Positions 12,237 through 56,935 of a stretch of DNA of 64,000 nucleotides are shown in pieces. The stretch covers positions 1 through 64,000 of the forward strand of contig CACWXP010000013.1 of NCBI GenBank assembly GCA_902764875.1, read 5' to 3'. This stretch comes from an uncultured Eubacteriales bacterium. Lineage in GTDB: Bacteria; Bacillota; Clostridia; Christensenellales; Aristaeellaceae. A model generated the notes under the pieces. It was given only the letters and a program-made list of their open reading frames with translations, was not told the DNA's origin and searched no databases. The position numbers and the translations under genes are program-made. Numbering within the stretch: the stretch's first letter is position 1; every line of letters starts with the position of its first letter.

Positions 12237-12307
12237 TTTTCGCGAACTTCCCGGTCTTTCCGGCGTTTTCAGATTCATTGATGAAAGAAGAAAGGGGGCT
12301 TTTTTCT

Positions 12308-13624
12308 GTGGCATATTCTGTAGGCGTCATTTCACTCGGCTGCAACAAAAACCGTGTGGACACTGAAACGGCGCTCGGCCTGCTGCAGGAAAACGGCTTT
12401 GTTTTCACGCCCCATCCCGAAGAAGCCGATATTCTGATGGTCAATACCTGCGGATTCATTGATTCCGCCAAGGAAGAATCCATCAATACCATTCTTGAAA
12501 TGGCCCAGTTTAAGGAAACCGGCCGGTGTCGCCTGCTGGTTGTCACTGGGTGTCTGGTTCAGCGCTATGAAAAGGATCTGCTGAAAGAGCTTCCGGAAAT
12601 CGATCTGTTGCTCGGTGTAAACCAGTATGAACAGCTGCCGGCCCTGATCCATCAAGCACTGGATGGAAAACGCGTCAGCAACTGCCGGGACGATTTCAGC
12701 TATTTTGAGCACAAAAGGGTTCTGACAACGCCCTCCTGGTCCGCCTATGTACGAATCGGTGAAGGCTGTTCCAACCGCTGTACCTTCTGTGCCATTCCGC
12801 TGATTCGCGGTCCCTATCGCAGCCGCGGAGAAGATCAGATTCTCCGGGAAATCCGGGATCTGGCCACGCAAGGTGTTCGGGAATATATTCTTGTCGCACA
12901 GGATACCACGCGATATGGTACGGAAGATCATGAGCACACAACGCTACCATTATTAATGAAGAAAGCCGCCGAAATCGACGGAGTTGACTGGCTTCGGGTG
13001 CTGTACTGCTATCCGGATGAAACGAACGACGAACTGCTGGATGTCCTGGCGGATCATCCTAAAGTCTGCCCTTACCTCGACATTCCGATTCAGCATGTAA
13101 ATGCAGAACTTCTTCACAGGATGCATCGCCGCGGGACCAGGGAAGATATTCTCCGCTGTGTGCGCGGAGCCAGGGAACGGGGACTGACTCTTCGAACCAG
13201 CATTATAGTCGGTTTCCCGGGCGAAACAGAAGATCAGTTCCGTGAACTCTTGGATTTTGTAGAGGAGACGGAGTTTGACCGCCTCGGCGCCTTCACTTAT
13301 TCGCCTGAAGAAGGAACACCGGCCGCAAAGATGCCGGATCAGGTTCCGGAAAAAGTGAAGGAAGACCGTTTTAGTCGTCTCATGCTGCTTCAGCAGAAGA
13401 TTTCTCTCCGACGCAATAAAGCACGGATTGGTTCTGTTGAACAGGTGCTGGTCACAGCAACTGAAGGCGATGGCTTCTGTCTCGGCCGGTCTTCCCGTGA
13501 GGCACCTGAAACAGACGGTGAAATCTATATTCACTGCGGAAAAATAACGCCTGAACCCGGATTGTTCATTCCGGTTCAAATTTCGGAAGCCGGACTTTAT
13601 GATCTGAAGGGAGAAATGCTATGA
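12308..13624 (+). CDS. rimO: ribosomal protein uS12 methylthiotransferase RimO
   Basis: A radical SAM enzyme that adds a methylthio group to a conserved aspartate of ribosomal protein S12. The 438-residue reading has the MTTase N-terminal domain (VGVISLGCNKNRVDTE with C12, then NTCGFIDSAKEES and VTGCLVQR). The radical SAM core has GEGCSNRCTFC (three cluster cysteines near 154-161) and YCYPDE, and there is a C-terminal TRAM domain. SLGCNKNxVD and ISYCYPDE-type motifs favour RimO over MiaB. The start is taken as GTG 12308 behind AAAGGGGG; an ATG at 12281 is possible. The stop overlaps pgsA by 4 bp (ATGA). Confidence 0.93.
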   Translation: MAYSVGVISLGCNKNRVDTETALGLLQENGFVFTPHPEEADILMVNTCGFIDSAKEESINTILEMAQFKETGRCRLLVVTGCLVQRYEKDLLKELPEIDLLLGVNQYEQLPALIHQALDGKRVSNCRDDFSYFEHKRVLTTPSWSAYVRIGEGCSNRCTFCAIPLIRGPYRSRGEDQILREIRDLATQGVREYILVAQDTTRYGTEDHEHTTLPLLMKKAAEIDGVDWLRVLYCYPDETNDELLDVLADHPKVCPYLDIPIQHVNAELLHRMHRRGTREDILRCVRGARERGLTLRTSIIVGFPGETEDQFRELLDFVEETEFDRLGAFTYSPEEGTPAAKMPDQVPEKVKEDRFSRLMLLQQKISLRRNKARIGSVEQVLVTATEGDGFCLGRSSREAPETDGEIYIHCGKITPEPGLFIPVQISEAGLYDLKGEML

Positions 13625-14154
13625 ATCTGCCAAATAAGCTAAGCATTGCCCGGACACTATGTATCCCCGCAATTGTCGTTCTTCTCTATATGAAGGATGA
13701 CACCTGCCGGATCATTGCCGGAATTCTTTTTATCCTGGCGGCACTGACAGATCTGCTTGACGGAAAAATTGCTCGCAAGTATAATCTGGTAACGGATTTC
13801 GGAAAATTTATCGATCCGGTAGCGGATAAACTGCTTGTGCTGACCACACTGATTATGTTGATTCACATCAACCTGATGGAAGCATGGGTTGTCGTGATTA
13901 TTCTCTGTCGTGAGCTTGCGGTGGACGGCCTGCGAATGGTAGCCGTCGGCCAGGGAAATGTCATTGCCGCAAGTCCGTTGGGAAAATGGAAAACAACATT
14001 TCAAATGATTACCATCGTATGTATTCTGCTGCTGAATCAGTCCTGTTTTTCAACCTGGTACACATGCGCCCTGACAATCGCTTCCATCATCCTGACCCTC
14101 GGTTCTGCTGTGGATTATTTTTATCGGAACAAGTCGGTCTTTTCAACAAAATAA
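13621..14154 (+). CDS. pgsA: CDP-diacylglycerol--glycerol-3-phosphate 3-phosphatidyltransferase
   Basis: Makes phosphatidylglycerol phosphate in the membrane from CDP-diacylglycerol and glycerol-3-phosphate. The 177-residue protein has the CDP-alcohol phosphotransferase signature D-x2-DG-x2-AR-x8-G-x3-D-x3-D, read as DLLDGKIAR...GKFIDPVADK at about 43-68, and four to six membrane segments. Size is typical. It is translationally coupled to rimO, and its stop borders the first DnaA-box cluster. Confidence 0.92.
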   Translation: MNLPNKLSIARTLCIPAIVVLLYMKDDTCRIIAGILFILAALTDLLDGKIARKYNLVTDFGKFIDPVADKLLVLTTLIMLIHINLMEAWVVVIILCRELAVDGLRMVAVGQGNVIAASPLGKWKTTFQMITIVCILLLNQSCFSTWYTCALTIASIILTLGSAVDYFYRNKSVFSTK

Positions 14155-14498
14155 AGGGCTTCAGGTTTTCCACAGGGACTTTTCCACATGTGGATAACTC
14201 TGTGGATTCAGTGGAATAACTTTTCAATAAGGGCATGGAATTCATCTTAACAGAGAAAAATGCCCGGTTTTCCCAGAGAGAAAAGCAAAAAAAAGAAGGA
14301 ATTTATTGCCGGACTATTGAATATTAACAGGAAACACTGATGTTTCCCCGAGTTATCCACATTTTATTTACAGGATAAATCGTTGAAAATACTGAGGTTT
14401 CAGACGTTATCCACAGTTTCCACAGGTTCTACTGCTACTACGATTAAGTATATATTAATCATAAATTATCTTCATCAGTAAAGCGAGGTTGAACATCC
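14155..14498. other. candidate replication origin (oriC), DnaA-box cluster 1
   Basis: This 344-bp gap holds three perfect DnaA boxes: TGTGGATAA at 14189-14197 (minus), TTATCCACA at 14353-14361 and at 14407-14415 (plus). Near-matches are TTTTCCACA at 14166-14174 and 14180-14188, TGTGGATTC at 14201 and GTTTCCACA at 14416. A CTA-CTG-CTA-CTA run at 14429-14440 and an A/T-rich stretch at 14441-14475 follow the last boxes, directly before dnaN. The arrangement fits a DnaA-unwound origin. No dnaA gene is adjacent. Confidence 0.75.
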
Positions 14499-15614
14499 AT
14501 GATCTTCACCATGAACTCTCAGGATCTTCTTGAAGGACTGAATACAGTAACCCGAGCACTCTCGGCACGTTCACCCAAACAAATTCTTGAGGGTATCCTT
14601 ATGACGGCTGCCGGAGACAGAGTGAAAATGACTTGTACAGACGGATCATTAGTGATTGAGTGCACCAACGCTGCTTCAATTAAAGAAGAAGGTCAGGCTG
14701 TTTTACCCGGAAGACTGTTTACGGAATTGATCCGAAAAATGCCTGCCGGAGATGTGAATATTTCCGTAACGGACAATCGCACAGCTGTGATCCGTTGCAT
14801 GAAAAATCGCAGCAGCCTGGCCATTATGAATGCAGACGAATATCCTGAAATTCAGAATCTCCAGTCTGGAACAGTGGTCAAAATTCCTCAGAATAAACTG
14901 CGGGATATGATTTCACGTGTCGTTTTTGCGATTGCGACGGACGAAAGCCGCCAGATCCTGACGGGCAGTCTTCTGGAAGTCAGCCGCAATGAGGCAAGGC
15001 TGGTTGCACTTGACGGTTTCCGTCTCGCCATGCAGAAGCTGTTCCAGCCTTTTGAATTGCCGGAAGGTATAGACGTTGTCCGGGCCATTATACCGGGAAA
15101 AGTGATGAATGAACTTTCCAGGATACTGCCGGAAGACGATGCGTTCTGCACGATGCTGTTTGATAAAAACCGTATGCAATGTACTTTCGGGAATATCCGT
15201 TTAACCAGCGGTCTGCTTGCAGGTGAATACATTGATTATCGCCGTATCCTGCCGACAGATTTTAAAACGGAGGCCTGCGCAAACAGAATCAATGTTCAGG
15301 ACGCGATTGACCGTGCCAGTTTGATGGCCAGGGAAGGAAAAAATAATCTGATCAAAATGAGTTTCCATGACGGCATTCTGAAAATCACATCCAATGCCGA
15401 ACTGGGAGATGTGGAAGAAGAAATGGATGCATCCCTGAACGGTGAACCGATTGATATCGCTTTTAATGCGAGATATATTACGGACGTGATCCGGAATGTA
15501 TCGGATGAGAATCTCTGCATGAAGTTTAATTCCAATATCAGTCCCTGTGTGGTAGTACCGGAAAATGGGGATGACTTTATTTATCTGATTCTTCCGGTTC
15601 GGGTATTCCAGTAA
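14499..15614 (+). CDS. dnaN: DNA polymerase III beta subunit (sliding clamp)
   Basis: Forms the ring that holds the replicative polymerase on DNA. The 371-residue length and three-fold repeated fold are as expected; recognisable stretches include MIFTMNSQDLLEGLNTVTRALS at the start, LIRKMPAGDVNI, SLLEVSRNEARLVALDGFRLA and the C-terminal ISPCVVVPENGDDFIYLILPVR. It lies just after the origin-like region and 7 bp before recF, which probably shares its transcript. The region is visibly A/T-richer than the flanks. The usual dnaA neighbour is missing. Confidence 0.96.
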   Translation: MIFTMNSQDLLEGLNTVTRALSARSPKQILEGILMTAAGDRVKMTCTDGSLVIECTNAASIKEEGQAVLPGRLFTELIRKMPAGDVNISVTDNRTAVIRCMKNRSSLAIMNADEYPEIQNLQSGTVVKIPQNKLRDMISRVVFAIATDESRQILTGSLLEVSRNEARLVALDGFRLAMQKLFQPFELPEGIDVVRAIIPGKVMNELSRILPEDDAFCTMLFDKNRMQCTFGNIRLTSGLLAGEYIDYRRILPTDFKTEACANRINVQDAIDRASLMAREGKNNLIKMSFHDGILKITSNAELGDVEEEMDASLNGEPIDIAFNARYITDVIRNVSDENLCMKFNSNISPCVVVPENGDDFIYLILPVRVFQ

Positions 15615-15621: not shown

Positions 15622-16791
15622 ATGATTATTGAAAAACTGACGCTGCGCAATTTCAGAAATTATGAAGACATTGTATTGACCCCTCATGAAGGGGTCAATC
15701 TGTTCTTTGGTGAAAACGGATCCGGAAAGACAAATCTGTTGGAAGCGATTCATTATTGCGCGCTTGGAAAAAGCCATCGGATCACCGGTGATCAGAGTGC
15801 TGTCCGCATTGGTGAGACTTTTTCTGTATGTGATGTCAAAATACTGACAAAAGGGTTGCACAGGGAGATCACAGTTCGATTGATTCCGAATGAACAAAAC
15901 AAAAAAACAGTTTTATTGGATCAAAAGCAAATTAAACGCTTTTCAGAGTTAATGGGTTGTCTGCAGTGCGTAATTTTTTCACCGGAAGATTTGGGACTTG
16001 TTCGGGAAGGTCCTTCAATAAGAAGAAGATTTCTGGATATGATGATCAGTCAGGTCAATCGGAATTACTTTATTGCTTTGCAACAATATCGTTCAGGTCT
16101 GGAACAGAGAAATGCATTGTTGAAAAGAATCGGAAAAAATCTTGAAAAAGGTCATGGAATGCTGGACGTGTTTGAGCAGACAATGGCAGCTCCTGTTTCC
16201 GTTATTATTGCGGAAAGAAAAAAAATTGTAGAAATGCTTTCTGATCTTGCATCATCAACATACAGGGAAATATCCGGCAGAGACGAGGAAATATTCAGTG
16301 TCGGTTATCATTCATCTTTTCTTGAGTCTGAAAATATTCAAGAGGACTATATTTATGCTTTGAAAAATAACCGGGAAGAAGATATTCGCTTCGGAGTTAC
16401 GACAGCCGGACCCCACAGGGATGATCTGCTTTTATCCTTAAACAAAAAGAACATGAAGGTATATGCAAGTCAGGGTCAGGTTCGCACAGCAGCACTTTCC
16501 ATGAAACTTGCGCAGATGAAAGTATTCCGAAGAATCAGCGGAGAAACACCTGTTCTTTTGCTGGATGATGTAATGAGTGAATTGGACAAAAGCAGAAGAA
16601 TGAGACTATTGGATACAATTCGGGACTATCAGACATTTATCACCTGTACGGATAAAAGTGATTTGGATGCAGAAAAAAACAGTAGAATTTATCATGTTTC
16701 AAACAAAAGTGGGACAGCAGTACTGGATGAAGAAAATCCGGACCCGTCAGAAGAGACTTTTATTCTTAAAGAGCCGGATTTTGCATTGTAA
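15622..16791 (+). CDS. recF: DNA replication and repair protein RecF
   Basis: Binds gapped DNA with RecO/RecR to load RecA at stalled forks. The 389-residue protein has Walker A GENGSGKT at 30-37, an SMC-like ATPase layout, the TAGPHRDDLLLSLN motif and ASQGQVRTAALSMKLA signature, and Walker B VLLLDDVMSELD. The gene follows dnaN directly, but the small S4-domain gene (yaaA) often found between them is absent. No strong ribosome binding site precedes its ATG, so translation may depend on dnaN. The stop codon touches a parS-like site. Confidence 0.95.
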   Translation: MIIEKLTLRNFRNYEDIVLTPHEGVNLFFGENGSGKTNLLEAIHYCALGKSHRITGDQSAVRIGETFSVCDVKILTKGLHREITVRLIPNEQNKKTVLLDQKQIKRFSELMGCLQCVIFSPEDLGLVREGPSIRRRFLDMMISQVNRNYFIALQQYRSGLEQRNALLKRIGKNLEKGHGMLDVFEQTMAAPVSVIIAERKKIVEMLSDLASSTYREISGRDEEIFSVGYHSSFLESENIQEDYIYALKNNREEDIRFGVTTAGPHRDDLLLSLNKKNMKVYASQGQVRTAALSMKLAQMKVFRRISGETPVLLLDDVMSELDKSRRMRLLDTIRDYQTFITCTDKSDLDAEKNSRIYHVSNKSGTAVLDEENPDPSEETFILKEPDFAL

Positions 16792-16807
16792 TGTTTCACA
16801 TGAAACA
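16792..16807 (+). other. parS-like ParB binding site 1
   Basis: TGTTTCACATGAAACA differs from the general parS consensus TGTTTCACGTGAAACA at one central base. It begins at the base after the recF stop codon. Confidence 0.8.
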
Positions 16808-16890
16808 ATTTATAAACAGATAAACTAACCGGGAAGGGTTCGGCCTTTATCATATAACCAGCAATATCAAAACAAAAGACTGTAAGAAAA

Positions 16891-16906
16891 TGTTTCATGT
16901 GAAACA
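16891..16906 (-). other. parS-like ParB binding site 2
   Basis: TGTTTCATGTGAAACA is the exact reverse complement of site 1, so both have the same single deviation from the parS consensus. The two sites are 83 bp apart in opposite orientation. Confidence 0.8.
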
Positions 16907-17056
16907 AATACTTGTGAAAGGGTTCAAAAACTCGTGTATTTGAGTTCTGGTTATTCTCTTTTGAAAATAAATGAGGATGAGCATAATAATCCTGATCATC
17001 TGTGAAAAATAAAAGTAGTAAACTAAAAATTCGTTTGAATCTGAAAAACTCAAAAG

Positions 17057-17212
17057 TTATACACAGGTTTTCCACAGGCTGAAAGCAATGAAAATAAAGG
17101 AATTCCAGAGCATTATGTTGATAAACTGTTGAAAAAAACAGAAGTTTTCCACAAACATTGAATTGCTGTATTTGCTTGCTTTTTCTTGAAGCTGTGGATG
17201 AATTGTGGAAAA
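17057..17212. other. DnaA-box cluster 2, in the recF to MBL gap
   Basis: TTATACACA at 17057-17065, TTTTCCACA at 17068-17076 and 17145-17153, TGTGGATGA at 17193-17201 and TGTGGAAAA at 17204-17212. Each is within one base of the DnaA consensus. The surrounding gap (16808-17337) is A/T-rich and has no convincing gene. Confidence 0.6.
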
Positions 17213-17337
17213 GTATTAAAGAGAACAACAGAGAGATGATTATAAAGCAACAATATGGAGAAAGGTGAGAGAATCGTTCAGTTTTATGCGTGTATAAAAA
17301 ACGATATGGGAATAACAAGTAACTTTGATTGCAAAAT

Positions 17338-17366
17338 TTGACAAACATGGCAGAAGTATGTAAAAT
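17338..17366 (+). promoter_or_regulatory. promoter of the MBL hydrolase gene
   Basis: TTGACA (17338-17343), 17 bp and TAAAAT (17361-17366), 49 bp before the start codon. Confidence 0.75.
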
Positions 17367-17414
17367 TCACAGCAATTGATTCTATCATTGTTCGAAGAAA
17401 GGGAGGAAAACGTT

Positions 17415-18341
17415 TTGCCGTCATATCTTGTTACACATTACTATCACAGCGGATTTTCTGTTGCTTGCGACGATTCCATCCTGATCTTTGATTATTGGCT
17501 TGGCGAGAATCAGGAACTGGCGCCGAAATTTCGTCTCACAAAAAGAAATCTTGAGCGTTACAGTCATATTTATGTATTTATCAGCCATGATCATCCGGAT
17601 CATATGGATCCCGTTGTTTTCACCTGGAAGGATCTTCCGGGCATTCAGTATATCGTTTCCTCAGATATGCCGGTCGGAACGAGGGGACGTCGGATGGCGC
17701 CGGGAAATACCATTTGTTTCAGCGAAGAAGTGGAAGTGACGGCTTTTGATTCAACAGACCTGGGTGTGTCATTTCTGGTGAATTTCAAAGGCCTTCAGAT
17801 TTTTCATGCCGGAGATTTGAATTTCTGGCATTGGCGTGATGAATCCGGCATGAGAGAAATAGAGGAAGCGGACAATGAATTCCGCAAGGCAGTTGCTCCG
17901 ATATGTGAGAAAAAAGTGGATCTGGCTTTCTTTCCGTTGGATCCCCGGCAGGGAACGATGTTTGAAGCCGGGGCAAATTACTTTATTCTCAGTGTAAAAC
18001 CGCGCATTATGATTCCGATGCATTACTTTCATCGGGCGGAAGTCGCCATGGAATATGCGCGCACAGCCTCCTGCCGTACGACGGAAGTCATTGCTTTGCC
18101 CGGTTACGGCGATTTGCTGAATATCGATCTGGATCAGGAAGGTTACCTGAATCTTTCTTTTCCTGCCCGTTCCAAATTGCAGGAAGAAACGGATGAAGAA
18201 ACAAATGACGGTGAAAACACGGACGAAGAATCTGTCCTGACGGAAAACGATCCTTTCCGTGAGAGCGATCTGCCTTTAACCCAGTTGGTGCATAGGGAGG
18301 AGGAAAGTTATCCACAGGGGGAAACAGTGCCGAATACTTGA
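17415..18341 (+). CDS. metallo-beta-lactamase-fold hydrolase
   Basis: The 308-residue protein has the zinc-binding HDHPDH motif at 58-63 (after YVFIS), a second metal histidine in FHAGDLNFWHW, an acidic PLDPR segment and a late histidine in MIPMHYFH, all typical of the metallo-beta-lactamase fold. It appears cytosolic. The last 60 residues are a Glu/Asp-rich tail of no known fold. TTG at 17415 is chosen because GGGAGG lies 8 bp upstream. The substrate is unknown. It stands between two DnaA-box clusters, and its last 12 codons contain a perfect DnaA box, so it is embedded in the origin region. Confidence 0.8.
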   Translation: MPSYLVTHYYHSGFSVACDDSILIFDYWLGENQELAPKFRLTKRNLERYSHIYVFISHDHPDHMDPVVFTWKDLPGIQYIVSSDMPVGTRGRRMAPGNTICFSEEVEVTAFDSTDLGVSFLVNFKGLQIFHAGDLNFWHWRDESGMREIEEADNEFRKAVAPICEKKVDLAFFPLDPRQGTMFEAGANYFILSVKPRIMIPMHYFHRAEVAMEYARTASCRTTEVIALPGYGDLLNIDLDQEGYLNLSFPARSKLQEETDEETNDGENTDEESVLTENDPFRESDLPLTQLVHREEESYPQGETVPNT

Positions 18342-18498
18342 TAAATACAGGCTTTCGGGAGTTTTCCACAAGTTTTCCACAGCCTGGGGAGAACTTTCCA
18401 CAGCTGCCTGTGAATAACGAAACCCGTTGAAAAATAAAGGTTTTCAGCACCGGGATGTTTTTGTCCCTTACAATATATAGGTTTGAGCCTGTGGAAAA
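18308..18498. other. DnaA-box cluster 3, downstream of the MBL gene
   Basis: A perfect TTATCCACA at 18308-18316 lies inside the end of the MBL gene. It is followed by TTTTCCACA at 18362-18370 and 18373-18381, CTTTCCACA at 18394, TGTGAATAA at 18409-18417 and TGTGGAAAA at 18490-18498. Apart from the terminator that follows there is no other feature in this gap. Confidence 0.6.
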
Positions 18499-18536
18499 GT
18501 CTCTGCTCGACACTTGCGAACAGAGACGTTTTTTTG
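18499..18536 (+). terminator. intrinsic terminator after the MBL gene
   Basis: GTCTCTG (18499-18505) pairs with CAGAGAC (18521-18527) around a 15-nt loop, followed by GTTTTTTT. Confidence 0.7.
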
Positions 18537-44644: not shown

Positions 44645-46645
44645 TTATTTCTCAAAAGGTACATACGTAGGAACCAGCTCCCGCACCAAATCCCGAATAT
44701 CCTCCCTGTTGGCATAGGCCGCGCCCATCAGATCGCCCATGCGCGAAAGGAACACCTCTTCGTCGAAGGGAACAGGATTGCCGATGTGGATCAGGTCGTT
44801 GTCGGTTTTCTTCAGCCCTTCCTCTTCCATCAGCTTTTCTTCATAAAGCTTCTCGCCGGGCCGCAGACCGGTATACTCAATCTTGATATCAATATCCGGC
44901 TTGAATCCGGACATCCGGATCAGGTTCCGGGCCAGGGAGTCGATCTTCACCGGGCTCCCCATGTCCAGCACGAAAATTTCGCCGCCCCGCGCATACGTGC
45001 CGGCCAGCATCACCAAAGAAACCGCCTCCGGAATCGTCATGAAATAGCGGATGATGTCCGGATGGGTTACGGTCACGGGCCCGCCGCGCTCAATCTGCTT
45101 TTTGAAAACCGGGATCACGCTTCCGTTGGATCCTAGAACGTTGCCGAACCGTACGGCTACAAACTCGGTCCGGATGTTTTTCCAGATCTCCCCGCTGCCG
45201 TCCCTGTCGGCGTTCTCAAGGCCCTCGTGGGTGAAAAGCTGAGGAATCTCTTCCGCCTTCCCGGCCTTGATTTTCGCGTCAAACGCCTGAATGATCATCT
45301 CGCAAAGGCGCTTGCTGGCGCCCATGATGTTGGTCGGGTTCACGGCCTTGTCTGTGGAAATCAGCACAAACCGGCGGCACCCGTGGGTCATGGCGGCGTA
45401 AGCCGTCTTGTAGGTGCCGATGGCGTTGTTCTTGATGGATTCGCAGGGGCTGTCCTCCATCAGGGGCACGTGCTTGTGGGCCGCCGCGTGATAAACGACC
45501 TCTGGCCGGTATTCCTCAAACACCTGGAACATCCGCCGGCTGTCCCGCACCGATCCGATCAGCACCTCCAGCCGCAGCTCCGGATATTTTTCCTTCAGCT
45601 CCAGCTGAATCGAATAGGCGCTGTTTTCATATACGTCGAAGATGATCAGGCATTTCGGCCTGTGGGCCGCAATCTGGCGGCAAAGCTCCGATCCGATGGA
45701 TCCGCCGCCGCCGGTCACCAGAACGGTTTTCCCGGAAATGAATTCGAAAACCTCCTGCAGGTCCGTGCGGATCGGATCCCGGCCCAGCAGGTCCTCCACG
45801 GAAACTTCCCGGATCGAGGACACGGAAACCTCGCCGGTCACCAGTTGGTAAATCCCGGGCAGCTGCTTTAGCTTGCAGTTGGTTTCGCTGCAGATCGCCA
45901 GGATGTCCCGCTTTGTCTGCACGGAGGCGCTGGGGATCGCCAGGATGATTTCATCCACCTCGTATTTCGCCGCCGCGGCCAGGATGTCGTCCCGCCCGCC
46001 GACGATCGGCACGCCCTCCATATACCGGTTCCATTTGTTCGGGTTGTCGTCGATGATGCATACAACCTTGTCGGGCAGTTCCCGGGCGGTCATGATCTCC
46101 CGCAGAATGGTCTGCCCGGCGTCGCCCGCGCCGATGATCATCACGCGCTTCCCGCCCTCTTTCATGGGCTCCCGGTTGTATTGCAGCAGCTTGATCAGCC
46201 GGAACCCGAACCGGGGGATGCAAAGAAGGATAAACTGGAAGAAGGCGCCCCATATATAATAGGAAATCGGCATCCGGATGAAAATCACCGTGATCAGCAG
46301 CGCGTGCAGCAGCGACGAGACCATCGACCCCATGAAGGTCCGAACCAGCTCGGTATAGCTGGCAAACCGCCACATGCTGTTGTACATTTTGAAGAAAAGG
46401 AAAATGACGATGCTGTTCAGCGCCCAGGGGAAGATGAACCGGGCATAGGCTTTGATGAACGGCTGGGCGATGGAGGTATAGGTTGCGTCGTAGCGCAGAT
46501 AAAGCGCAAGAAAATATCCGAGGCAAACGGCCACGAAGTCATACACCGCCAGCACAACGGCAATAATCTGCCAGTGCTCGATCACATGGCTTCCGATCTG
46601 CAGGGTTTTCCTGCGCTTCCGGCGCGATCTCCTCGGCTCCTGCAC
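44645..46645 (-). CDS. membrane NDP-sugar 4,6-dehydratase (CapD/WbpM/PglF family), copy 2
   Basis: The 666-residue paralogue of the convergent gene has four membrane helices, a CoA-binding-like domain (RVMIIGAGDAGQTILREI) and an SDR domain with TVLVTGGGGSIGSELCRQIA, AAHKHVPLMED and STDKAVNPTNIMGASKR. It has an insertion of about 30 residues near IQAFDAKIKAGKAEEIPQLF that copy 1 lacks. It begins with GTG at 46645 behind GAGGT, and has its own promoter at 46689. Two such enzymes suggest two different 6-deoxy sugars or different regulation. Confidence 0.9.
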   Translation of the reverse strand: MQEPRRSRRKRRKTLQIGSHVIEHWQIIAVVLAVYDFVAVCLGYFLALYLRYDATYTSIAQPFIKAYARFIFPWALNSIVIFLFFKMYNSMWRFASYTELVRTFMGSMVSSLLHALLITVIFIRMPISYYIWGAFFQFILLCIPRFGFRLIKLLQYNREPMKEGGKRVMIIGAGDAGQTILREIMTARELPDKVVCIIDDNPNKWNRYMEGVPIVGGRDDILAAAAKYEVDEIILAIPSASVQTKRDILAICSETNCKLKQLPGIYQLVTGEVSVSSIREVSVEDLLGRDPIRTDLQEVFEFISGKTVLVTGGGGSIGSELCRQIAAHRPKCLIIFDVYENSAYSIQLELKEKYPELRLEVLIGSVRDSRRMFQVFEEYRPEVVYHAAAHKHVPLMEDSPCESIKNNAIGTYKTAYAAMTHGCRRFVLISTDKAVNPTNIMGASKRLCEMIIQAFDAKIKAGKAEEIPQLFTHEGLENADRDGSGEIWKNIRTEFVAVRFGNVLGSNGSVIPVFKKQIERGGPVTVTHPDIIRYFMTIPEAVSLVMLAGTYARGGEIFVLDMGSPVKIDSLARNLIRMSGFKPDIDIKIEYTGLRPGEKLYEEKLMEEEGLKKTDNDLIHIGNPVPFDEEVFLSRMGDLMGAAYANREDIRDLVRELVPTYVPFEK

Positions 46646-46688
46646 GGCAAGGACCTCACTTTGTTCTACATATAGTCATACAAAGTGC

Positions 46689-46717
46689 ATTATATACCAT
46701 ATATACCAAAGCGTCAA
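46689..46717 (-). promoter_or_regulatory. promoter of dehydratase copy 2
   Basis: On the minus strand TTGACG (46717-46712), 17 bp and TATAAT (46694-46689). Confidence 0.75.
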
Positions 46718-46727
46718 ATAAACCCTT

Positions 46728-47849
46728 TCATTCCGCGTGAATGTCAAACATTTTGATATTGTTCTGATACCGCTCGACGCATTCGAAAATGATCACGTCC
46801 GGCTGCTGCTCGTCGATCAGGTCCCCTTTGAAGGCGGGGAAGGTAATGTAATAGCTCCCGCTGAACTGCGAGGAAAGGTACGGCAGCATCGAAATGATAA
46901 ACGAATCCCGGATCACCAGGATCTTCCGCGGATCCGCGCCCTCCGTCGCCCGGTAGCGGTATCCGTAGTCAAAATCCCCCAGGTTTTCGATCCCGTGGGT
47001 GTCGTATCCCGTCACCGTGTAGTCAACGCTCGTGCCCTTCAGCTGCGCCCCCAGCCCGATCATTTTGCTCAGGTCGCCGATCCGCTCATGCCCGCTTTCG
47101 GTGATCGTAATTTCTCCGGAGTCGTATGCCGGCATTTGGATCCCGAGCTCTTTCAGCAGCGCGCAGGCGCCGATGTACCCGCCGATTTGGTTCCAGTGGG
47201 TGTCCGTTTTGTAATAGATCGGTTCCGAAAGTTTCGCCTTCGCCGCCATCAGCTCCTCCAGCGGATAGAGCACGCGCAGGTCCGTGTTCGCGTGCAGGTA
47301 GTCCACCAGCTGCTTCGTGCAGTATTCTTCCGCCGGCGGGCCGTATTTCTCCGGCATCTTGTCAAAGTAAACCCGCTCCTTGTCCGGCGCGATGAAGATC
47401 ACAAACTCGATGCCTCGCTCCGCCAGCTCGTCCCGGATCTCCACCAGGTGCGCCGCGATGTTCCGCAGCTCCTCCTCCGTGTTCATCGCGTATCCGTGAT
47501 ACCGGGCGATGGGGTTCCCGTCGTTGATGTTCGTGAAAAACAGCCATCCGTCCTTGCCGATTGCCGCCCGCTCGCTGGAGGTCGTGTTGAAAAGGTAATA
47601 GTCCGCCGCGCTCTTCAGGGTGATCAGTTCATTCCGGAAGGGGATCCGGTCGTTGAAAAACGCCTCAAAGTCCGCCGGAAACTTCTGATAGTCTTCCAGG
47701 GAGTGCACTTCCTTCAGCTCGTGCAGCTTCCGGTTTTCGTCGGAGGTGTCGGCCGTGCCGCTGATCATCAGCCACACCGCCCACGAGAGGCAAAGCGCCG
47801 CCAGGAACACCGCGTAAATCACCCGGAGTCCGGCTTTTTTTGACCTCAT
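46728..47849 (-). CDS. AlgJ/AlgX-like SGNH-fold protein, partner of an MBOAT acyltransferase
   Basis: The 373-residue protein has one N-terminal membrane segment (GLRVIYAVFLAALCLSWAVW) and an extracytoplasmic SGNH-like domain with GKDGWLFF, FIAPDKERVYFDKMP, the TDTHWN motif of the AlgJ/AlgX family and IRDSFIISMLPYL near the C-terminus. Such proteins take an acyl group delivered by an MBOAT and place it on a secreted polysaccharide. The MBOAT gene directly upstream in the same direction (47998-49443) supports this. ATG 47849 is chosen for its GGAGGTG spacing. The glycan is unknown. Confidence 0.8.
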   Translation of the reverse strand: MRSKKAGLRVIYAVFLAALCLSWAVWLMISGTADTSDENRKLHELKEVHSLEDYQKFPADFEAFFNDRIPFRNELITLKSAADYYLFNTTSSERAAIGKDGWLFFTNINDGNPIARYHGYAMNTEEELRNIAAHLVEIRDELAERGIEFVIFIAPDKERVYFDKMPEKYGPPAEEYCTKQLVDYLHANTDLRVLYPLEELMAAKAKLSEPIYYKTDTHWNQIGGYIGACALLKELGIQMPAYDSGEITITESGHERIGDLSKMIGLGAQLKGTSVDYTVTGYDTHGIENLGDFDYGYRYRATEGADPRKILVIRDSFIISMLPYLSSQFSGSYYITFPAFKGDLIDEQQPDVIIFECVERYQNNIKMFDIHAE

Positions 47850-47915
47850 GCGCACACCTCCTCGCGATCATTGATTCCGCACCTGCTGAAGAATATGACA
47901 CCAGATCCTGCGATC

Positions 47916-47994
47916 GCCGTTACCAAAGTTTCTTCGAAACTTTGACGGCTGTAGCATGGCACGTGTTACCCAAATCGAAGATTTGGACACGTGC
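47916..47994. repeat. two tandem imperfect hairpins of the same plan
   Basis: Hairpin 1 (47916-47949): GCCGT, a TAC bulge, CAAAGTTTC, loop TTC, GAAACTTTG, ACGGC. Hairpin 2 (47959-47994): GCACGTGT, a TAC bulge, CCAAATC, loop GAA, GATTTGG, ACACGTGC. Both carry the same bulge and a three-base loop and are 9 bp apart, between the MBOAT gene and its partner. Confidence 0.65.
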
Positions 47995-47997
47995 TCA

Positions 47998-49443
47998 TCA
48001 GAACTGGAAGTAAATAAACGGATTATAGGACTCCCCGGCAATGGTTGCGATGCAAAACACCAGCAGCGCTGCGCACCAGATCGCCTCGGGAACGGAGCCC
48101 ACCCATTTCTCCCGCCATTTCGCCGGTGCCGCCCGCTGAACAATCCCCGCGCCGAGCACCGCCGCGACAAACATCGCGATGGTCTTCGCCGTCAGGTATT
48201 CTGCCGCCGGAATCTGCGCGATCCAGTTGTGCCACGGGCGGATCATGTGCGCGATGTAGGTGATCGCCTCGTCCACCGAGTCCATCCGGAAAAGCACCCA
48301 CCCCAGCACCACCACCAGGAAGCAGTAAACCCCGCCGAGGATTTTATTCTTGTCCAGCAGCTTTTTCAGCCCCAGCCGCTCAAGAATCACGAAGAACCCG
48401 TGATAAGCCCCCCACAGCAGGAACGTCACGTTCGCCCCGTGCCAAAGCCCGGTCAGCAGAAAAACAATCGCCAGGTTGATATAGGTCCGAATCTTCCCCT
48501 TCCGGTTTCCCCCCAGCGGGATGTAAACGTATTCCCGGAACCAGGTCCCCAGCGAGATGTGCCACCGCCGCCAGAATTCCGATACAGACTTCGACAAATA
48601 AGGATGCTCAAAGTTCTCCAGGTAATCAAACCCGAACATTTTCCCCAACCCGATGGCCATGTCGGAGTATCCGGAAAAGTCGTAGTAAATCTGAAAGGCA
48701 TAGGCCAGCGCCCCGACCCACGCGGCAACGGGATCAATCCGCGTCACGTGGTAGGTGTGGATCGTGTCCGCGCAAAGCCCCAGCACGTTGGCAATCAGCA
48801 CCTTCTTGGCCAGGCCGTAGATGAACCGCCGGAAGCCTTCCGCCGTCCGCTCCCAGTGGATCTGCCGGCTCTCAATCTGCCGGTTGATGTCCCGGTATTT
48901 CACAATCGGTCCGGCAATCAGCTGGGGAAAGAAGGAGATATACAGCGCCGTGTTGATCGGATTCTTCGAAGCCTCGGCGTTTCCCCGGTAAACGTCGACG
49001 ACGTAGGAAATCGCCTGAAAGGTAAAGAAGGAAATCCCGATCGGCAGGGCGATCTCCGGAACGGTCAAAGCCTCCTGCCCCAGCAGCCCGTTCAGGGTTC
49101 GCGCAAAAAACCCGGCATACTTAAAATACCCCAGAATAGCCAGATCCCCGATGATCGCAAGGATAAGCCAAAACCGACCGGAGGCACTCTTTGCACCAAT
49201 GGGGACAGACCCCATTGGTGCACTTTTCGCAATCATAACCCCGCAGAACCAGTTCAGCAAAATCGATCCGATCATCAGCAGCATCAGCACCGGTTCGCCC
49301 CAGGCATAGAAAATCAGGCTGGCGATCAGCAGGAAGCAGTTGGATACAGTTGTCGAAGACTTGAAAAAACGTGATAGCAGTGAATTAATCAGATAAACCG
49401 CCGGAAGAAAAAGAAGCAGAAACACCAAAGAACTGAAAAGCAT
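47998..49443 (-). CDS. MBOAT family O-acyltransferase (AlgI/DltB type), copy 1
   Basis: The 481-residue membrane protein starts MLFSSLVFLLLFLPAVYLINSL and has about ten helices with the family stretches LPIGISFFTFQAISYVVDVYRG, SFFPQLIAGPIVKYRDI, YDFSGYSDMAIGLGKMFG and the catalytic-histidine LWHGANVTFLLWG. It moves an acyl group across the membrane for transfer to an exported polymer. The AlgJ-like gene follows. A palindromic element at 49192 lies within the coding sequence, in a loop near residues 74-85, and adds an APMGSVPIGAK stretch not expected in the family. Confidence 0.88.
   Translation of the reverse strand: MLFSSLVFLLLFLPAVYLINSLLSRFFKSSTTVSNCFLLIASLIFYAWGEPVLMLLMIGSILLNWFCGVMIAKSAPMGSVPIGAKSASGRFWLILAIIGDLAILGYFKYAGFFARTLNGLLGQEALTVPEIALPIGISFFTFQAISYVVDVYRGNAEASKNPINTALYISFFPQLIAGPIVKYRDINRQIESRQIHWERTAEGFRRFIYGLAKKVLIANVLGLCADTIHTYHVTRIDPVAAWVGALAYAFQIYYDFSGYSDMAIGLGKMFGFDYLENFEHPYLSKSVSEFWRRWHISLGTWFREYVYIPLGGNRKGKIRTYINLAIVFLLTGLWHGANVTFLLWGAYHGFFVILERLGLKKLLDKNKILGGVYCFLVVVLGWVLFRMDSVDEAITYIAHMIRPWHNWIAQIPAAEYLTAKTIAMFVAAVLGAGIVQRAAPAKWREKWVGSVPEAIWCAALLVFCIATIAGESYNPFIYFQF
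49192..49222. repeat. palindromic GGGGACAGACCCC element inside the MBOAT gene
   Basis: TGCACCAATGGGG (49192-49204) and CCCCATTGGTGCA (49210-49222) are perfect 13-bp arms around ACAGA. The frame stays open across it. A related element with the same core is at 56755. Confidence 0.8.
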
Positions 49444-49491
49444 ACTTCATTCTCCCGATTGGCTTTTTGAACCGGATAGCGCACCCGCCGG

Positions 49492-50703
49492 TTATTTGCT
49501 CAAAACTTCTCCCGTCAGCGCTTTCCACTTGGCGCGGATGGTTTTCTGGTTGGCAACGCCGTAGCTCGGGTCGTTGGCCTTGGCTTCGTCCATATCCCGC
49601 AGGAAGTGCACGCACAGGTGCCCGTTGAAGTTGTTGGTCGAAATCGTTCCGCTCATGTGCGGCATGTCGTGGGTGGAGCCCAGGGTCCAGATGCCGGAGG
49701 GCAGCTTCACGTAAACCGCCTTCTGGTCCCAAGTGTTCACCCCGCCGAAGGCCTTCAGCATGTTCGCCGTGTCCTGCGCGGTCAGGGGCTCCGCGTCGCA
49801 GTGCCGGCCGCAGCTGTGTACCCTCAGTGTCCAGAAGATCTTTGTCTCGGGATCATATACCAAAAGCTGGTTTCCGCCCTTCAGGGTCAGTTTGATGTCG
49901 TTGAACCAGTGCAGCAGCCGCAGCGCGGTGCCGTCCGGCGCCGTTGCGGTTTTGCTGGAAGAAACGGAATTGGCGTCCCCGGCGGTGGAAACCACCGCGG
50001 CCTTGGATTCTTCCTGGATGGCGACGGCCGTTCCGGAGGAGGAAGAGCTCGTGCCCGAAGAAGAGGACGAAGATGAAGTAGTGGATGATGAATTCGTGGA
50101 ACCGCGCTTGGTCCCGTTCTTATCCGCCGTCTCAATGGCTTTCAGGGTTTTCTTGCCGGCCAGGCCGTCCACGCTCAGCCCGTTCTCCTTCTGGAAAAGC
50201 GCCACCGCGTCCAGCGTCTTGCTGCCGAATTTGCCGTCCGCCTTGCCGGAAAGATAGTTCAGCCGGATCAGCGCGGACTGCAGGGTCTTCACCCGGACGC
50301 CCTCGTTCTTCAGGCGGATCGTCGTGTAGTTTCCGCCGAAAAGGCTTCCGTCGCCGGAAGAGCTCGTTGTCGAAGAGGAGCTTGCCGACGAAGAAGAGCT
50401 CGTCGTCTTGCTGCCCGAACTTCCGTAAAGAAGCTCCTGCGTCTTCTTTCCGGCCAGGCCGTCCACTTTCAGCTTCTTTGCCTTCTGGAAGGCGCGCACC
50501 GCGTTCTCGGTTTTGTTGCCGAAAACGCCGTCGGCCGATCCCTTCAGGTATCCCTGGTCAATCAGGGCCTGCTGCAGCTTGCGAACGGCCTCGCCGCGGG
50601 ATCCGTACTTCAGCGTACCGGAATCCAGCGCCAGGGCGGACGCGCAAAGGGAAACCGCCAGCACCAGAGCGGTCAGGAAACAAATCAAACGGCGGCGGGA
50701 CAT
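49492..50703 (-). CDS. secreted protein with two peptidoglycan-binding domains and an uncharacterised C-terminal domain
   Basis: The 403-residue protein has a signal peptide (MSRRRLICFLTALVLAVSLCASALA), two PG_binding_1 domains (KYGSRGEAVRKLQQALIDQG...GVFGNKTENAV; KNEGVRVKTLQSALIRLNY...GKFGSKTLDAV) joined by Ser/Thr linkers, and a C-terminal domain with HCDAEPLTAQDTA, PHMSGTIS and GHLCVHF. The latter matches the end of the protein at 28359. Conserved His, Asp, Glu and Cys suggest a wall-directed enzyme, but no family is known to me. ATG 50703 follows GGAGGTG; the promoter is at 50743. Confidence 0.82.
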   Translation of the reverse strand: MSRRRLICFLTALVLAVSLCASALALDSGTLKYGSRGEAVRKLQQALIDQGYLKGSADGVFGNKTENAVRAFQKAKKLKVDGLAGKKTQELLYGSSGSKTTSSSSSASSSSTTSSSGDGSLFGGNYTTIRLKNEGVRVKTLQSALIRLNYLSGKADGKFGSKTLDAVALFQKENGLSVDGLAGKKTLKAIETADKNGTKRGSTNSSSTTSSSSSSSGTSSSSSGTAVAIQEESKAAVVSTAGDANSVSSSKTATAPDGTALRLLHWFNDIKLTLKGGNQLLVYDPETKIFWTLRVHSCGRHCDAEPLTAQDTANMLKAFGGVNTWDQKAVYVKLPSGIWTLGSTHDMPHMSGTISTNNFNGHLCVHFLRDMDEAKANDPSYGVANQKTIRAKWKALTGEVLSK

Positions 50704-50742
50704 ATCCTGCACCTCCAGACACAAAATCATCAGGGTTTAGAA

Positions 50743-50771
50743 ATTATATCATTATTGTGAAGAAATGTAAA
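50743..50771 (-). promoter_or_regulatory. promoter of the peptidoglycan-binding protein gene at 49492
   Basis: On the minus strand TTTACA (50771-50766), 17 bp and TATAAT (50748-50743). Confidence 0.75.
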
Positions 50772-50794
50772 GAAAATGTTACACCAAAATGACG

Positions 50795-50815
50795 ATAAAA
50801 GAAATCTGGCGGGCC
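50795..50815 (-). terminator. probable terminator of the five-gene minus-strand operon
   Basis: On the minus strand TCTGGC and GCCAGA (50815-50810 and 50807-50802) pair around two bases and are followed by TTTCTTTT. It lies after the PfkB kinase stop, with about 170 bp of unassigned sequence between. Confidence 0.5.
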
Positions 50816-50981
50816 AGACAGCTCAGAGACACCGCTGAGAGGACGCCGGGACTGCTGAACGCTCCTTTGCATCAAAATGTAATACAATTTGCAGTTGAAT
50901 GTTACGATGCTAGCCGCTATATCTTGTATTGCAATATGATTCGACTTTTCAGCAGTCTCGAAGATGCCTGCGCGCCGCGTT

Positions 50982-51899
50982 TCAGTCAAAAAAGTGCTTG
51001 TTGACAGGGCAGTTGGTTTCTTCCCGGTTGATGGTGGCGGAGGCCAGGCGCGCGCCGTAGTTAACTGCGTCGCAAAGCGCGCAGCCCCGGATCAGCGCCA
51101 TCACCGTTCCGGAGAAAAAGGCGTCCCCGGCGCCGCTGGTGTCGACCACGGTCGTCGGGCACGGCGGGCAGAAGCCGGTCTGTCCGGTTTTGCTGTCGTA
51201 GAAAACGGAGCCCCGCCCGCCCATGGTCACGACCACCGACTGCAGGCCGTCCTCCTTCGCCGCGGCGGCAAGGAAGGTTTCCATCTCTTCCGGCGAATAG
51301 TCCGCTACGCAGCATCCGAAGTATTTCCCGGCCTCAATCTCGTTGCAGATGAAGCAGTCCGTCAGCCGGATCAGGTCCTTCCGCCGCAGGATCACGCTCA
51401 GGTTCGCGACGATGGAATAAATCTTCTTATGATACTGCCGGCAAAGGCTGATCACCTTTTCGGCAATCCGCTCGCTCAGGTCCACTTCCAGCACCACCGC
51501 TTCCGCGTCCCGGATGATGCGTTCCCCGTTCTCGAAAAGATAGGATTCCAGCGCGCTCACGTCCGGCATCCGGGAGATGGATCCGGCCTGGTTTCCGTTT
51601 TCGTCCAGGATTACCAGCCACATGCCGATGCCTCCGGCCGGCACCTTCACCGCCCGGCTTACGTCCGCCCCGGCCTCGATAAGGTGCTGCTCCACGTCCT
51701 TGCCGAAGGGCGTCTCGTCCAGCAGCCCGACGAAGGAAACCGGCATGCCGACGTTGGCGAAGTTCTCCACCACGTTCCGGCAAACGCCCCCGTGGACGAT
51801 TTTGATCTCGCCCAAATTCCGTCCCTGGGGATCATATTTGCTTTTCGCGAACCCCTTGACATCCGTGAAGGCAACCCCAATGACAGCTGTGTTGGCCAT
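50982..51899 (-). CDS. PfkB family carbohydrate/nucleoside kinase
   Basis: The 305-residue ribokinase-fold enzyme has the N-terminal GGVCRNVVENFANVG region and the second PfkB signature DTSGAGDAFFSG with the catalytic aspartate. The pattern resembles nucleoside or pseudouridine kinases more than phosphofructokinase. It lies 19 bp downstream of the SAH/MTA deaminase gene and in line with ahcY, so phosphorylation of adenosine or inosine released from SAH is a reasonable inference, not shown. ATG 51899 follows AAAGGAG. Confidence 0.8.
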   Translation of the reverse strand: MANTAVIGVAFTDVKGFAKSKYDPQGRNLGEIKIVHGGVCRNVVENFANVGMPVSFVGLLDETPFGKDVEQHLIEAGADVSRAVKVPAGGIGMWLVILDENGNQAGSISRMPDVSALESYLFENGERIIRDAEAVVLEVDLSERIAEKVISLCRQYHKKIYSIVANLSVILRRKDLIRLTDCFICNEIEAGKYFGCCVADYSPEEMETFLAAAAKEDGLQSVVVTMGGRGSVFYDSKTGQTGFCPPCPTTVVDTSGAGDAFFSGTVMALIRGCALCDAVNYGARLASATINREETNCPVNKHFFD

Positions 51900-51918
51900 A
51901 AGCGCTCCTTTCCAGCCA

Positions 51919-53229
51919 TTACTGTTTAGTCAACCGCTCCGCGATCTTCCGAACTTCCTCATAAACCCGATCCTCATCGATCGTGGTCAGCTTCCCGTGA
52001 TCCATCAGCACCTTCCCGTCGACGATCACGGTGTCGACCTCGCTGCCGGTGGCGGAATAAACCAGTCCGGAGACGATATTGTTTGCCGGAATGAACTGCG
52101 GCACGTTCAGGTCGATCAGGATCAGGTCGGCCAGCGCGCCCTCCGCGATCACGCCCAGCTCGCCCTCCCGGCCGAGGGCCTTCGCCCCGTTCACCGTGGC
52201 CATCTTCAGCACGTCTCCCGCGTCAACGTTCTGCGCCTGCCGGGTCGCGCCCTTGTAAACCAGCCCCGCGGCGTTCATCTCGCTGAAAAGGTTCAGCGTG
52301 TTGTTGCTGCCGGCGCCGTCGGTGCCAAGACATACGTTGATCCCTGCGTCCAGCATCTTCTGCGCCGGGGCGAACCCGTTCCCAAGCTTCATGTTGCTCT
52401 TCGGGCAAAGGGCCACGCTCACGCCTTTCCGGGCCATCAGTGCAATGTCTTCGTCCGTGGCGTAAACGCAGTGGGCCACCAGGCAGGGAATGTCGAATTC
52501 GCCCTCAGAATCTACGTACTGAATCGGCGTCACGCCGCCGCGATCCGCGGCGATGGATTCCATCTCCCCCCGGCTTTCGGAAAGGTGAATCGTCTGGCCG
52601 ATCCCCCGTTCCCGGCTCGACTGCGTCAGCTTCCGCAGATAGTCCGGCATGCAGCTGTAGGGCGCGTGCGGCCCGTGAAGGAACTGCAGCCGCTCTTCAT
52701 CTTTGAACATCTCCATCTCGCGAACGGCCTGGCCGAACTTCATGATGGATTCCTCGCTGTCCGAAACCCCTGCCAGTCCCCGGGAAATCGCCGCCCGGAA
52801 GCCGGATTCCTTCACCGCGCCGGCGGCGGCGGACCGGGGCCCGCTCGTCTCCTGTGCGCTCTTGATCGTCATGTCGACGAAGCAGGTGGTCCCGCTCCGG
52901 ATCATCTCGATGATGCCCAGCAGCGTTGTCCAGTAGATGTCCTCCTCGGTCATCCCGTCCTCCACCTTCTGCACCTTGTCCAGCCATTCGAAAAACGCCA
53001 GATCGTCGGCATAGTTCCGGTGGATCGTCATATAAACGTGGGTGTGGGCGTTGATCAGCCCGGGCATCACCAGTTTGCCCGCCGCGTCGATCACGTCACA
53101 GCCGTCGGTCGGGATCCCCGGCGCCACCCGCGCGATCCGGTTCCCGTCGATCAGCACGTCCAGCTTCTCCGTGCGCCAGCCGTCTTCGCCCAGCAGCAGC
53201 ACCAGCCCGTTTTTGACAACCTTTTTCAT
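51919..53229 (-). CDS. mtaD: S-adenosylhomocysteine/5'-methylthioadenosine deaminase (amidohydrolase)
   Basis: Removes ammonia from the adenine ring of SAH, MTA or 5'-deoxyadenosine to give the inosine form. The 436-residue amidohydrolase has metal ligands in INAHTHVYMT, later histidines in HLSES and AHCVY, and LGTDGAGSNN with the catalytic aspartate. The context with adenosylhomocysteinase and a PfkB kinase points to recycling of SAM by-products in the cytosol. The ATG follows AAGGAG. The substrate preference among SAH, MTA and 5'-deoxyadenosine cannot be read. Confidence 0.88.
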   Translation of the reverse strand: MKKVVKNGLVLLLGEDGWRTEKLDVLIDGNRIARVAPGIPTDGCDVIDAAGKLVMPGLINAHTHVYMTIHRNYADDLAFFEWLDKVQKVEDGMTEEDIYWTTLLGIIEMIRSGTTCFVDMTIKSAQETSGPRSAAAGAVKESGFRAAISRGLAGVSDSEESIMKFGQAVREMEMFKDEERLQFLHGPHAPYSCMPDYLRKLTQSSRERGIGQTIHLSESRGEMESIAADRGGVTPIQYVDSEGEFDIPCLVAHCVYATDEDIALMARKGVSVALCPKSNMKLGNGFAPAQKMLDAGINVCLGTDGAGSNNTLNLFSEMNAAGLVYKGATRQAQNVDAGDVLKMATVNGAKALGREGELGVIAEGALADLILIDLNVPQFIPANNIVSGLVYSATGSEVDTVIVDGKVLMDHGKLTTIDEDRVYEEVRKIAERLTKQ

Positions 53230-53264
53230 TCAAAACTCCTTCTTGCTCTTGCGATCGCTGTTAT

Positions 53265-53292
53265 GGACCGGTCCACTTTTGCTATCCGGTCC
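53265..53292. other. intercistronic hairpin between ahcY and the deaminase gene
   Basis: GGACCGG (53265-53271) pairs with CCGGTCC (53286-53292). There is no T-run, so it may be an RNA processing or stability element in the operon rather than a terminator. Confidence 0.45.
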
Positions 53293-53316
53293 GCGCTTCC
53301 CCGACCCCCGATCTCT

Positions 53317-54561: not shown

Positions 54562-54579
54562 AACGACATTCGCTCCTTC

Positions 54580-55140: not shown

Positions 55141-55141
55141 C

Positions 55142-56671: not shown

Positions 56672-56716
56672 TCACCCGCAGCCTCTTCCCCGCCATATCT
56701 GGAGTCTCCAACAGGA

Positions 56717-56745
56717 ATTATATCCTATATATATGGATCAGTCAA
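56717..56745 (-). promoter_or_regulatory. promoter of the sugar transferase/rfbC/ahcY operon
   Basis: On the minus strand TTGACT (56745-56740), 17 bp and TATAAT (56722-56717). Confidence 0.8.
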
Positions 56746-56754
56746 TGAAACGGC

Positions 56755-56785
56755 TGTGCCACGGGGGACAGACCCCAATGGCGCA
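56755..56785. repeat. second GGGGACAGACCCC element
   Basis: TGTGCCACGGGGG-ACAGA-CCCCAATGGCGCA is an imperfect palindrome with the same core and arm layout as the element at 49192. It is intergenic here, between divergent promoters. Confidence 0.65.
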
Positions 56786-56817
56786 AAGTGCAAAACCACC
56801 CCGCCCCCCGGCAGGTG

Positions 56818-56840
56818 CGAAGGCTCCGGTAGAGCCTTCG
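56818..56840. repeat. perfect 9-bp hairpin in the divergent intergenic region
   Basis: CGAAGGCTC (56818-56826) pairs with GAGCCTTCG (56832-56840) around CGGTA, with no T-run. It lies upstream of the plus-strand promoter at 56877. Confidence 0.6.
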
Positions 56841-56876
56841 TTGAATGACCGTACCCCAACGCCCCAAGGCAGAAGC

Positions 56877-56905
56877 GTGACAACAAGCACAATAAATGAT
56901 AGAAT
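56877..56905 (+). promoter_or_regulatory. promoter of the plus-strand polysaccharide genes
   Basis: GTGACA (56877-56882), 17 bp and TAGAAT (56900-56905), 31 bp before the ATG at 56936. Confidence 0.65.
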
Positions 56906-56935
56906 GCCTGTGAATGTTTTTAAGCGGAGGACGAG

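Follow-up and report, generated by a model that had tools for sequence, protein, structure and literature searches.

In Escherichia coli, oriC lies tens of kilobases from dnaA, beside mnmG and not dnaN, with dnaA still origin-proximal, and many ideas on initiation timing lean on dnaA-origin linkage. Across SkewDB, dnaA is within 5% of the skew shift in >80% of chromosomes (PMC8941118). The bipartite oriC of Bacillus subtilis is ordered incA/incB-dnaA-incC-dnaN (PMC4207641, PMC8287927), with dnaA between the two origin halves (1.3 kb; PMC4207641), and how far these halves can be separated has been described as an extremely interesting question (PMC4207641). Its basal unwinding system has the order box-spacer-trio (PMC8287927). 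In Synechococcus elongatus, the origin and the skew switch are at dnaN, and dnaA is encoded separately (PMC7198777). Here, we report a 344-bp gap between pgsA and dnaN which is very probably oriC, found in a window of 64 kb (the whole stretch of DNA analyzed, 64,000 nucleotides) from a gut Clostridia genome whose dnaA is on another contig. Neither the unwinding module (PMC8287927) nor an origin at dnaN with a remote dnaA, as described for cyanobacteria (PMC7198777), is new; the distance, age, and single ancestry of the separation within one Clostridia family are, although the case is not unique. Among the open-access literature matches listed, there was no report of this layout in Firmicutes, Aristaeella, or Christensenellales.

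Gene order and candidate origin

The window carries, all on the + strand, rimO (ribosomal protein S12 methylthiotransferase; 12284..13624, start approximate), a pgsA-like CDP-alcohol phosphatidyltransferase gene (13621..14154; Pfam PF01066), dnaN (14499..15614; family TIGR00663, above cut-off), and recF (15622..16791; Pfam SMC_N and synteny). The name rimO comes from a first-pass annotation made on the sequence alone; the Pfam domains (Radical_SAM, UPF0004, and TRAM_2) agree with it, and the gene order is common to relatives. That annotation had rimO-pgsA in the place of dnaA before dnaN, and the gene order agrees: the pgsA-like gene holds the side of oriC usual for dnaA, and positions 14155-14498 are precisely the pgsA-dnaN gap. 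Eighty named related dnaN loci were compared, mostly from gut "Clostridia" or "Clostridiales bacterium" MAGs and including Candidatus Limiplasma and Candidatus Onthenecus; rimO-pgsA was upstream of dnaN in 27, and dnaA was absent around dnaN in all 80, some of the loci being short. No matches came from a scan of 12-50 kb against Rfam or from a search of the whole window for tRNAs.

Three perfect and several near DnaA boxes had been claimed for the gap, and the scan returned the same picture, with perfect boxes at 14189(-), 14353(+), and 14407(+), one-mismatch boxes at 14166 and 14180 (a further one, at 14109, is within pgsA), and a two-mismatch box at 14416 that abuts the perfect box at 14407. 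Together, the six sites in the gap form box cluster I of the candidate oriC (14155..14498, + strand), which was aligned across 30 same-genus loci. The 64 kb contains 29 sites with at most one mismatch (shuffle mean, 7.85; 0 of 100 shuffles reached 29), five of which fall inside the 344-bp gap, and there are three clusters of at least three boxes, at 14109-14415, 17057-17212, and 18308-18498.

Reading the + strand from 14407, the perfect box and the two-mismatch box (tandem pair, 14407..14424, from the box and trio scans) are followed by 4 bases, the triplets CTA CTG CTA CTA CGA, and an AT-rich run. The first four triplets (14429..14440, + strand; other strand 3'-GAT GAC GAT GAT-5') are DnaA-trios under the published rule (box with ≤2 mismatches, spacer of ≤16 nt, and ≥3 trios; PMC8287927), which calls a module at 14407-14440; its order matches that of the basal unwinding system (PMC8287927). 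The putative unwinding element (14447..14470, + strand) was picked by eye as AT-rich sequence, and aligned relatives have an AT-rich block after the trios. Under a strict trio rule (NTN triplets only, at least two CTA), the window held a single trio run, reached via two overlapping calls of neighboring boxes, with no other match in the window and none in 500 gap shuffles or 20 window shuffles. A tandem-box-plus-trio scan likewise gave one match in 64 kb, at the gap module.

Conservation of the module in relatives

In the 30-locus same-genus alignment, the gap is otherwise variable, and the boxes, a trio-like run, and the AT-rich block recur beside dnaN among the listed rows. Across 26 loci from genomes with dnaA and dnaN not adjacent ("apart"), the 500 bp upstream of dnaN held a mean of 3.23 boxes, versus 0.09 in shuffles. 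The published rule was passed by 21 of these 26 dnaN upstream regions (shuffle mean, 4.7; maximum, 8) and by 10 of 23 "apart" dnaA upstream regions (shuffle mean, 3.1; maximum, 7); because so many dnaA regions also pass, this rule alone does not tell the two genes apart. The tandem rule distinguishes them (21/26 dnaN versus 1/23 dnaA regions), but it is post hoc, having been written after inspection of the alignment. Five of the 26 "apart" dnaN regions fail by either rule; one of them (L146, tandem rule) belongs to the window's genus.

In genomes with adjacent genes, the tandem rule was passed by 12/17 dnaN and 0/16 dnaA regions and the published rule by 9/17 and 8/16, respectively; among the named loci, the counts were 60/80 (tandem) and 64/80 (published; shuffle mean, 12.8). 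The strict rule was passed by 15/26 "apart" dnaN, 5/17 "adjacent" dnaN, and 37/80 named loci, and by none of 23 "apart" or 16 "adjacent" dnaA regions; it misses relatives because many CGA or CAA triplets in their runs break it.

Location of dnaA

A search of the source genome, a draft of 67 contigs with no contig order, returned one full-length DnaA (contig C2, 5803-7137), other AAA matches being far weaker; dnaA and dnaN are on different contigs. In a set of 61 genomes, DnaN was found in 53 and DnaA in 55. Both genes were found in 26 of the 37 same-genus genomes (source included), never adjacent; in 23 they were on different contigs, and in 3 they were on one contig, >1.2 Mb apart. G149 is a fourth such genome. 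In the four congeners assembled in one or two contigs (G035, G022, G002, and G149), the distances were 1.32, 1.38, 1.28, and 1.21 Mb, or 0.78, 0.77, 0.75, and 0.74 of half the chromosome, which was assumed to be circular. Strands and sampled skew have dnaA read in the fork direction in G035, G022, and G149.

One of the two options offered by the first-pass annotation, that dnaA had moved away, is supported by this search. The other, a rebuilt origin, holds only in part: the module is of the usual type and is also found in 12 of 17 relatives with adjacent genes, and a downstream box cluster occurs in one outgroup. The annotation had also called for a search for dnaA and boxes of its own; the single dnaA, on its other contig, has a small cluster, and the tandem module is, as counted above, rare at dnaA and common at dnaN.

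In 13 of 16 same-genus drafts with a plus-strand dnaA, the gene starts 5.8-9.3 kb from the contig start, a pattern that hints at a repeat, left unassembled, in front of dnaA across the genus. Elsewhere in the source genome (contig C3; L002:1231-1944, minus strand), a 237-amino-acid protein consists only of a DnaA-like AAA part (90 bits to Bac_DnaA) and adjoins an FtsH-like AAA protein, identified by reading.

GC skew

Skew was computed on twenty 20-kb samples per genome in G035, G022, and G149. In G035 (3.39 Mb), samples were negative from 1.02 to 2.55 Mb and positive from 2.90 Mb round to 0.87 Mb, with a fine-scale sign change at 2.744-2.746 Mb (dnaN at 2.744 Mb). G022 was negative from 0 to 1.64 Mb and positive from 1.86 to 3.32 Mb, with the change near 1.756 Mb (dnaN at 1.755-1.756 Mb). 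In G149, the sign changed between 1.668 and 1.672 Mb (dnaN at 1.671 Mb), and 1 of 20 samples had an unexpected sign (2.90 Mb, -0.021 where plus might have been expected), near the antipode. Skew turned from negative to positive at dnaN-recF in all three; no switch occurred at dnaA in G035, and in G022 and G149 the samples flanking dnaA had the same sign. The first-pass annotation had proposed checking whether the cumulative skew minimum falls at 14-18 kb; in these congeners the switch is at the equivalent place.

On the source contig, a stretch of negative skew at 5-12 kb is followed by a positive one at 12-21 kb and by another negative one at ~22-68 kb. Cumulative skew had a local minimum at 11-13 kb, rose to ~22 kb, and then fell far below that minimum, so the contig shows neither the proposed minimum nor the positive right arm expected of an origin. 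The contig is collinear with G035 to ~33 kb, save for one inverted gene, and rearranged to ~44 kb. Only one reading frame from 45-91 kb had a counterpart in the 200 kb surrounding the G035 origin (≥45% identity, E value of 1e-30), and a search of window positions 46000-63800 in four congeners gave scattered short matches only. The negative skew at ~22-68 kb and the poor match to G035 past 44 kb point to either a recent rearrangement or a chimeric contig; because these two look alike here, the origin assignment for the source genome rests on relatives.

Alternative explanations

The evidence makes it highly probable, as judged from sequence, that chromosome replication starts in the pgsA-dnaN gap, served by DnaA from a distant gene: boxes are enriched, the module sits and is conserved at dnaN, skew switches there in three congeners, and dnaA is remote. 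The boxes might instead belong to a DnaA-regulated dnaN promoter region that stayed in place as dnaA relocated, with the functional origin at another site. The skew of the source contig, which never turns lastingly positive to the right, would suit this reading, but the switch at dnaN in three congeners, the conserved box-trio-AT module in the gap, and the parS-like sites beside recF (described below) argue against it and leave it improbable.

Use of two origins, at dnaN and at the relocated dnaA locus, is very improbable. A box cluster is indeed present upstream of dnaA in the source genome, G035, and G022, each with 3 boxes; the same holds for 11 of the 20 "apart" dnaA loci that were fetched. 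One dnaA locus (L164) passes the tandem rule. Against this, 22 of 23 dnaA regions fail that rule, same-genus G149 has no box cluster at dnaA, the skew samples place no switch there, and boxes upstream of dnaA fit autoregulation. That dnaA and dnaN are truly adjacent and were parted by assembly or binning is barely credible. The 67-contig draft and the closeness of dnaA to the contig start in many drafts would allow it; nevertheless, the contig has 14 kb of its own sequence upstream of dnaN, with the same genes in G035 and G149, none of the 26 same-genus genomes with both genes has them adjacent, and the one- and two-contig genomes refute an artifact unless all of them are wrong.

Age and frequency of the separation

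At least 111 of 200 genomes in the family sample had both genes; among the matches listed, these were adjacent in 22, on different contigs in 62, on a shared contig at distances of 7.7 kb to 1.38 Mb in 10, and not classed in 17. In a DnaN+DnaA tree of 39 genomes (mostly one per genus, three from the window's genus), all 22 "apart" genomes formed one clade (support, 97), sister (support, 92) to a clade of 13 adjacent genomes (support, 98); G172, adjacent and assigned to the family, fell outside both on a long branch. In a DnaN-only tree (112 sequences), a single clade (support, 0.885) took in 81 of the 83 "apart" tips. Of the two stray tips, G102 (L143) is in the main clade of the two-gene tree, and L145 was left out there. 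From these trees, there appears to have been a single old separation, basal to one half of the family.

The idea that the separation is unique to the source lineage was rejected, since other families of the order and class also lack linkage. Of 24 genomes from other families of the order, 22 had both genes, with 15 adjacent, 6 not, and 1 (G049) unclassed (coordinates read by eye). In the class sample, 105 of 115 were adjacent, 5 clearly apart (source genome included), 4 unclassed, and 1 neighboring on opposite strands. Family f39 had non-adjacent genes in 5/5 sampled genomes (G296, G320, and G344 clear; G265 and G366 less clear) and is, for that reason, probably an independent case.

What moved with dnaA

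The adjacent comparison set comprised 17 loci, three of them outgroups. A box cluster was upstream of dnaA in 13/17 and the tandem-plus-trio module upstream of dnaN in 12/17, which is the bipartite plan; as given above, the upstream cluster is kept at about half of the fetched "apart" dnaA loci. With the cluster at dnaA and the module at dnaN, a break between dnaA and the module seems to have occurred, and dnaA apparently carried its upstream side away. Among the 20 "apart" dnaA loci, dnaA is divergent beside parA-parB in 5 and beside a small conserved protein in 9, a pairing also seen in the source genome and G035; this protein sometimes sits between dnaA and parA-parB. The small protein is divergent to dnaA in many genera (L005:4884-5601, minus strand; equivalents in L079, L161, L164, and L166), and its L161 copy had no Pfam match. 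In G085, dnaA is 46 kb from dnaN, and parB is 136 kb away if the main contig is circular; in four members of the window's genus, parB is likewise remote, 0.75-1.0 Mb from dnaN, although parS-like sites have remained near dnaN.

Two palindromes on the + strand of the window, at 16792..16807 (directly after recF) and 16891..16906, each have one mismatch to the parS consensus and are called parS-like on that footing. Of 46 related loci, 38 have a parS-like site 2.2-2.8 kb past the start of dnaN; six of the eight loci without one hold <3 kb there.

Downstream box clusters

Box clusters II (17057..17212; 6 sites with ≤1 mismatch) and III (18308..18498; 5 such sites) lie at +2.6 and +3.8 kb from dnaN and have equivalents in related loci. 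Of the 80 named loci, 46 (L185-L230) were examined for such clusters. Of the 36 with at least 9 kb of sequence past dnaN, 35 carry a cluster of at least three boxes >2.3 kb beyond the dnaN start. In these relatives, one cluster commonly follows addA at ~+5 kb, and another is close to a metallo-beta-lactamase-like gene, near +5.9 or +8.5 kb. In sampled sequence from G035 (634 kb), G022 (400 kb), and G149 (400 kb), clusters of at least three boxes occurred only within ~11 kb of dnaN and at dnaA. Downstream clusters were found in 6/23 "apart" dnaN loci, mostly of other genera, and 1/17 adjacent loci. That last locus, outgroup L147, has a downstream cluster with dnaA still adjacent and weakens the idea that the downstream clusters are newly arisen.

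The window's own metallo-beta-lactamase-fold-like gene (17376..18341, + strand; weak Pfam Lactamase_B_2/B_3 matches, under curated cut-offs) is reversed relative to that of G035, and the box clusters on both sides of it show inverted similarity. The gene addA, next after recF in most related loci, is missing from that place in the window (16792-18500). The box-trio module, clusters II and III, and the parS-like palindromes at 16792 and 16891 had not figured in the first-pass annotation.

The downstream clusters may form the other half of the origin, or they may titrate DnaA. A larger scheme, which we offer tentatively and consider rather doubtful, would be a multipartite origin in which the dnaN-upstream module works with clusters II/III, which lie 2.5-9 kb downstream on the far side of dnaN-recF(-addA) and of the intervening parS-like sites, these clusters replacing the lost dnaA-promoter half, and the late-replicated dnaA would be a built-in delay limiting re-initiation.

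Proposed mechanism and comparison with known systems

In the preferred reading, with the origin at the gap, DnaA from the distant gene would bind box cluster I, extend from the tandem pair (14407-14424) along the trios (14429-14440), and open the AT-rich stretch, so that both forks would start in the pgsA-dnaN gap. The boxed and probably self-regulated dnaA would supply DnaA from afar. ParB on the parS-like sites might then handle the origin region. If dnaA is copied late, its dosage would be flat when the origin fires, and re-initiation would be damped. We infer firing of the origin, action of DnaA on it as in B. subtilis, and a part in control and segregation for the clusters downstream and the parS-like sites. 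As for history, gene order and the tree suggest that dnaA, together with the box cluster in front of it, parted from the dnaN-side module in an ancestor of half the family; dnaA would have stayed by parA-parB or within tens of kilobases of dnaN in some genera and ended 1.2-1.4 Mb off, read in the fork direction, in the window's genus.

The locus resembles the B. subtilis oriC in having, immediately before dnaN, tandem boxes followed by a short spacer and DnaA-trios, and in having a separate box cluster at the dnaA promoter. Of the Bacillus-type bipartite features, the module directly upstream of dnaN is present, and dnaA between box regions beside dnaN is absent; in contrast to B. subtilis, the halves here are on different contigs, and they are 1.21-1.38 Mb apart in four congeners. 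With a dnaN-linked origin and a single unlinked full-length dnaA, the layout is that of oriC at dnaN and dnaA elsewhere, as in S. elongatus. Cyanobacteria differ in being another phylum, mostly with several chromosome copies and some without DnaA dependence (PMC7198777), and, unlike theirs, this separation can be located on the tree of a single Clostridia family in which some relatives have kept the genes adjacent. As in E. coli, dnaA is off the origin, but in the window's genus it is nearer the antipode. The family offers a natural experiment, with the halves together, tens of kilobases apart, or >1 Mb apart and both states in sequenced genera, and it calls for caution with tools that put oriC at dnaA.

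Farther along the window (~47905-48000), a ~95-base dispersed repeat, with no Rfam or tRNA match, is present in many copies at ~80-90% identity in G035, G022, and G002.
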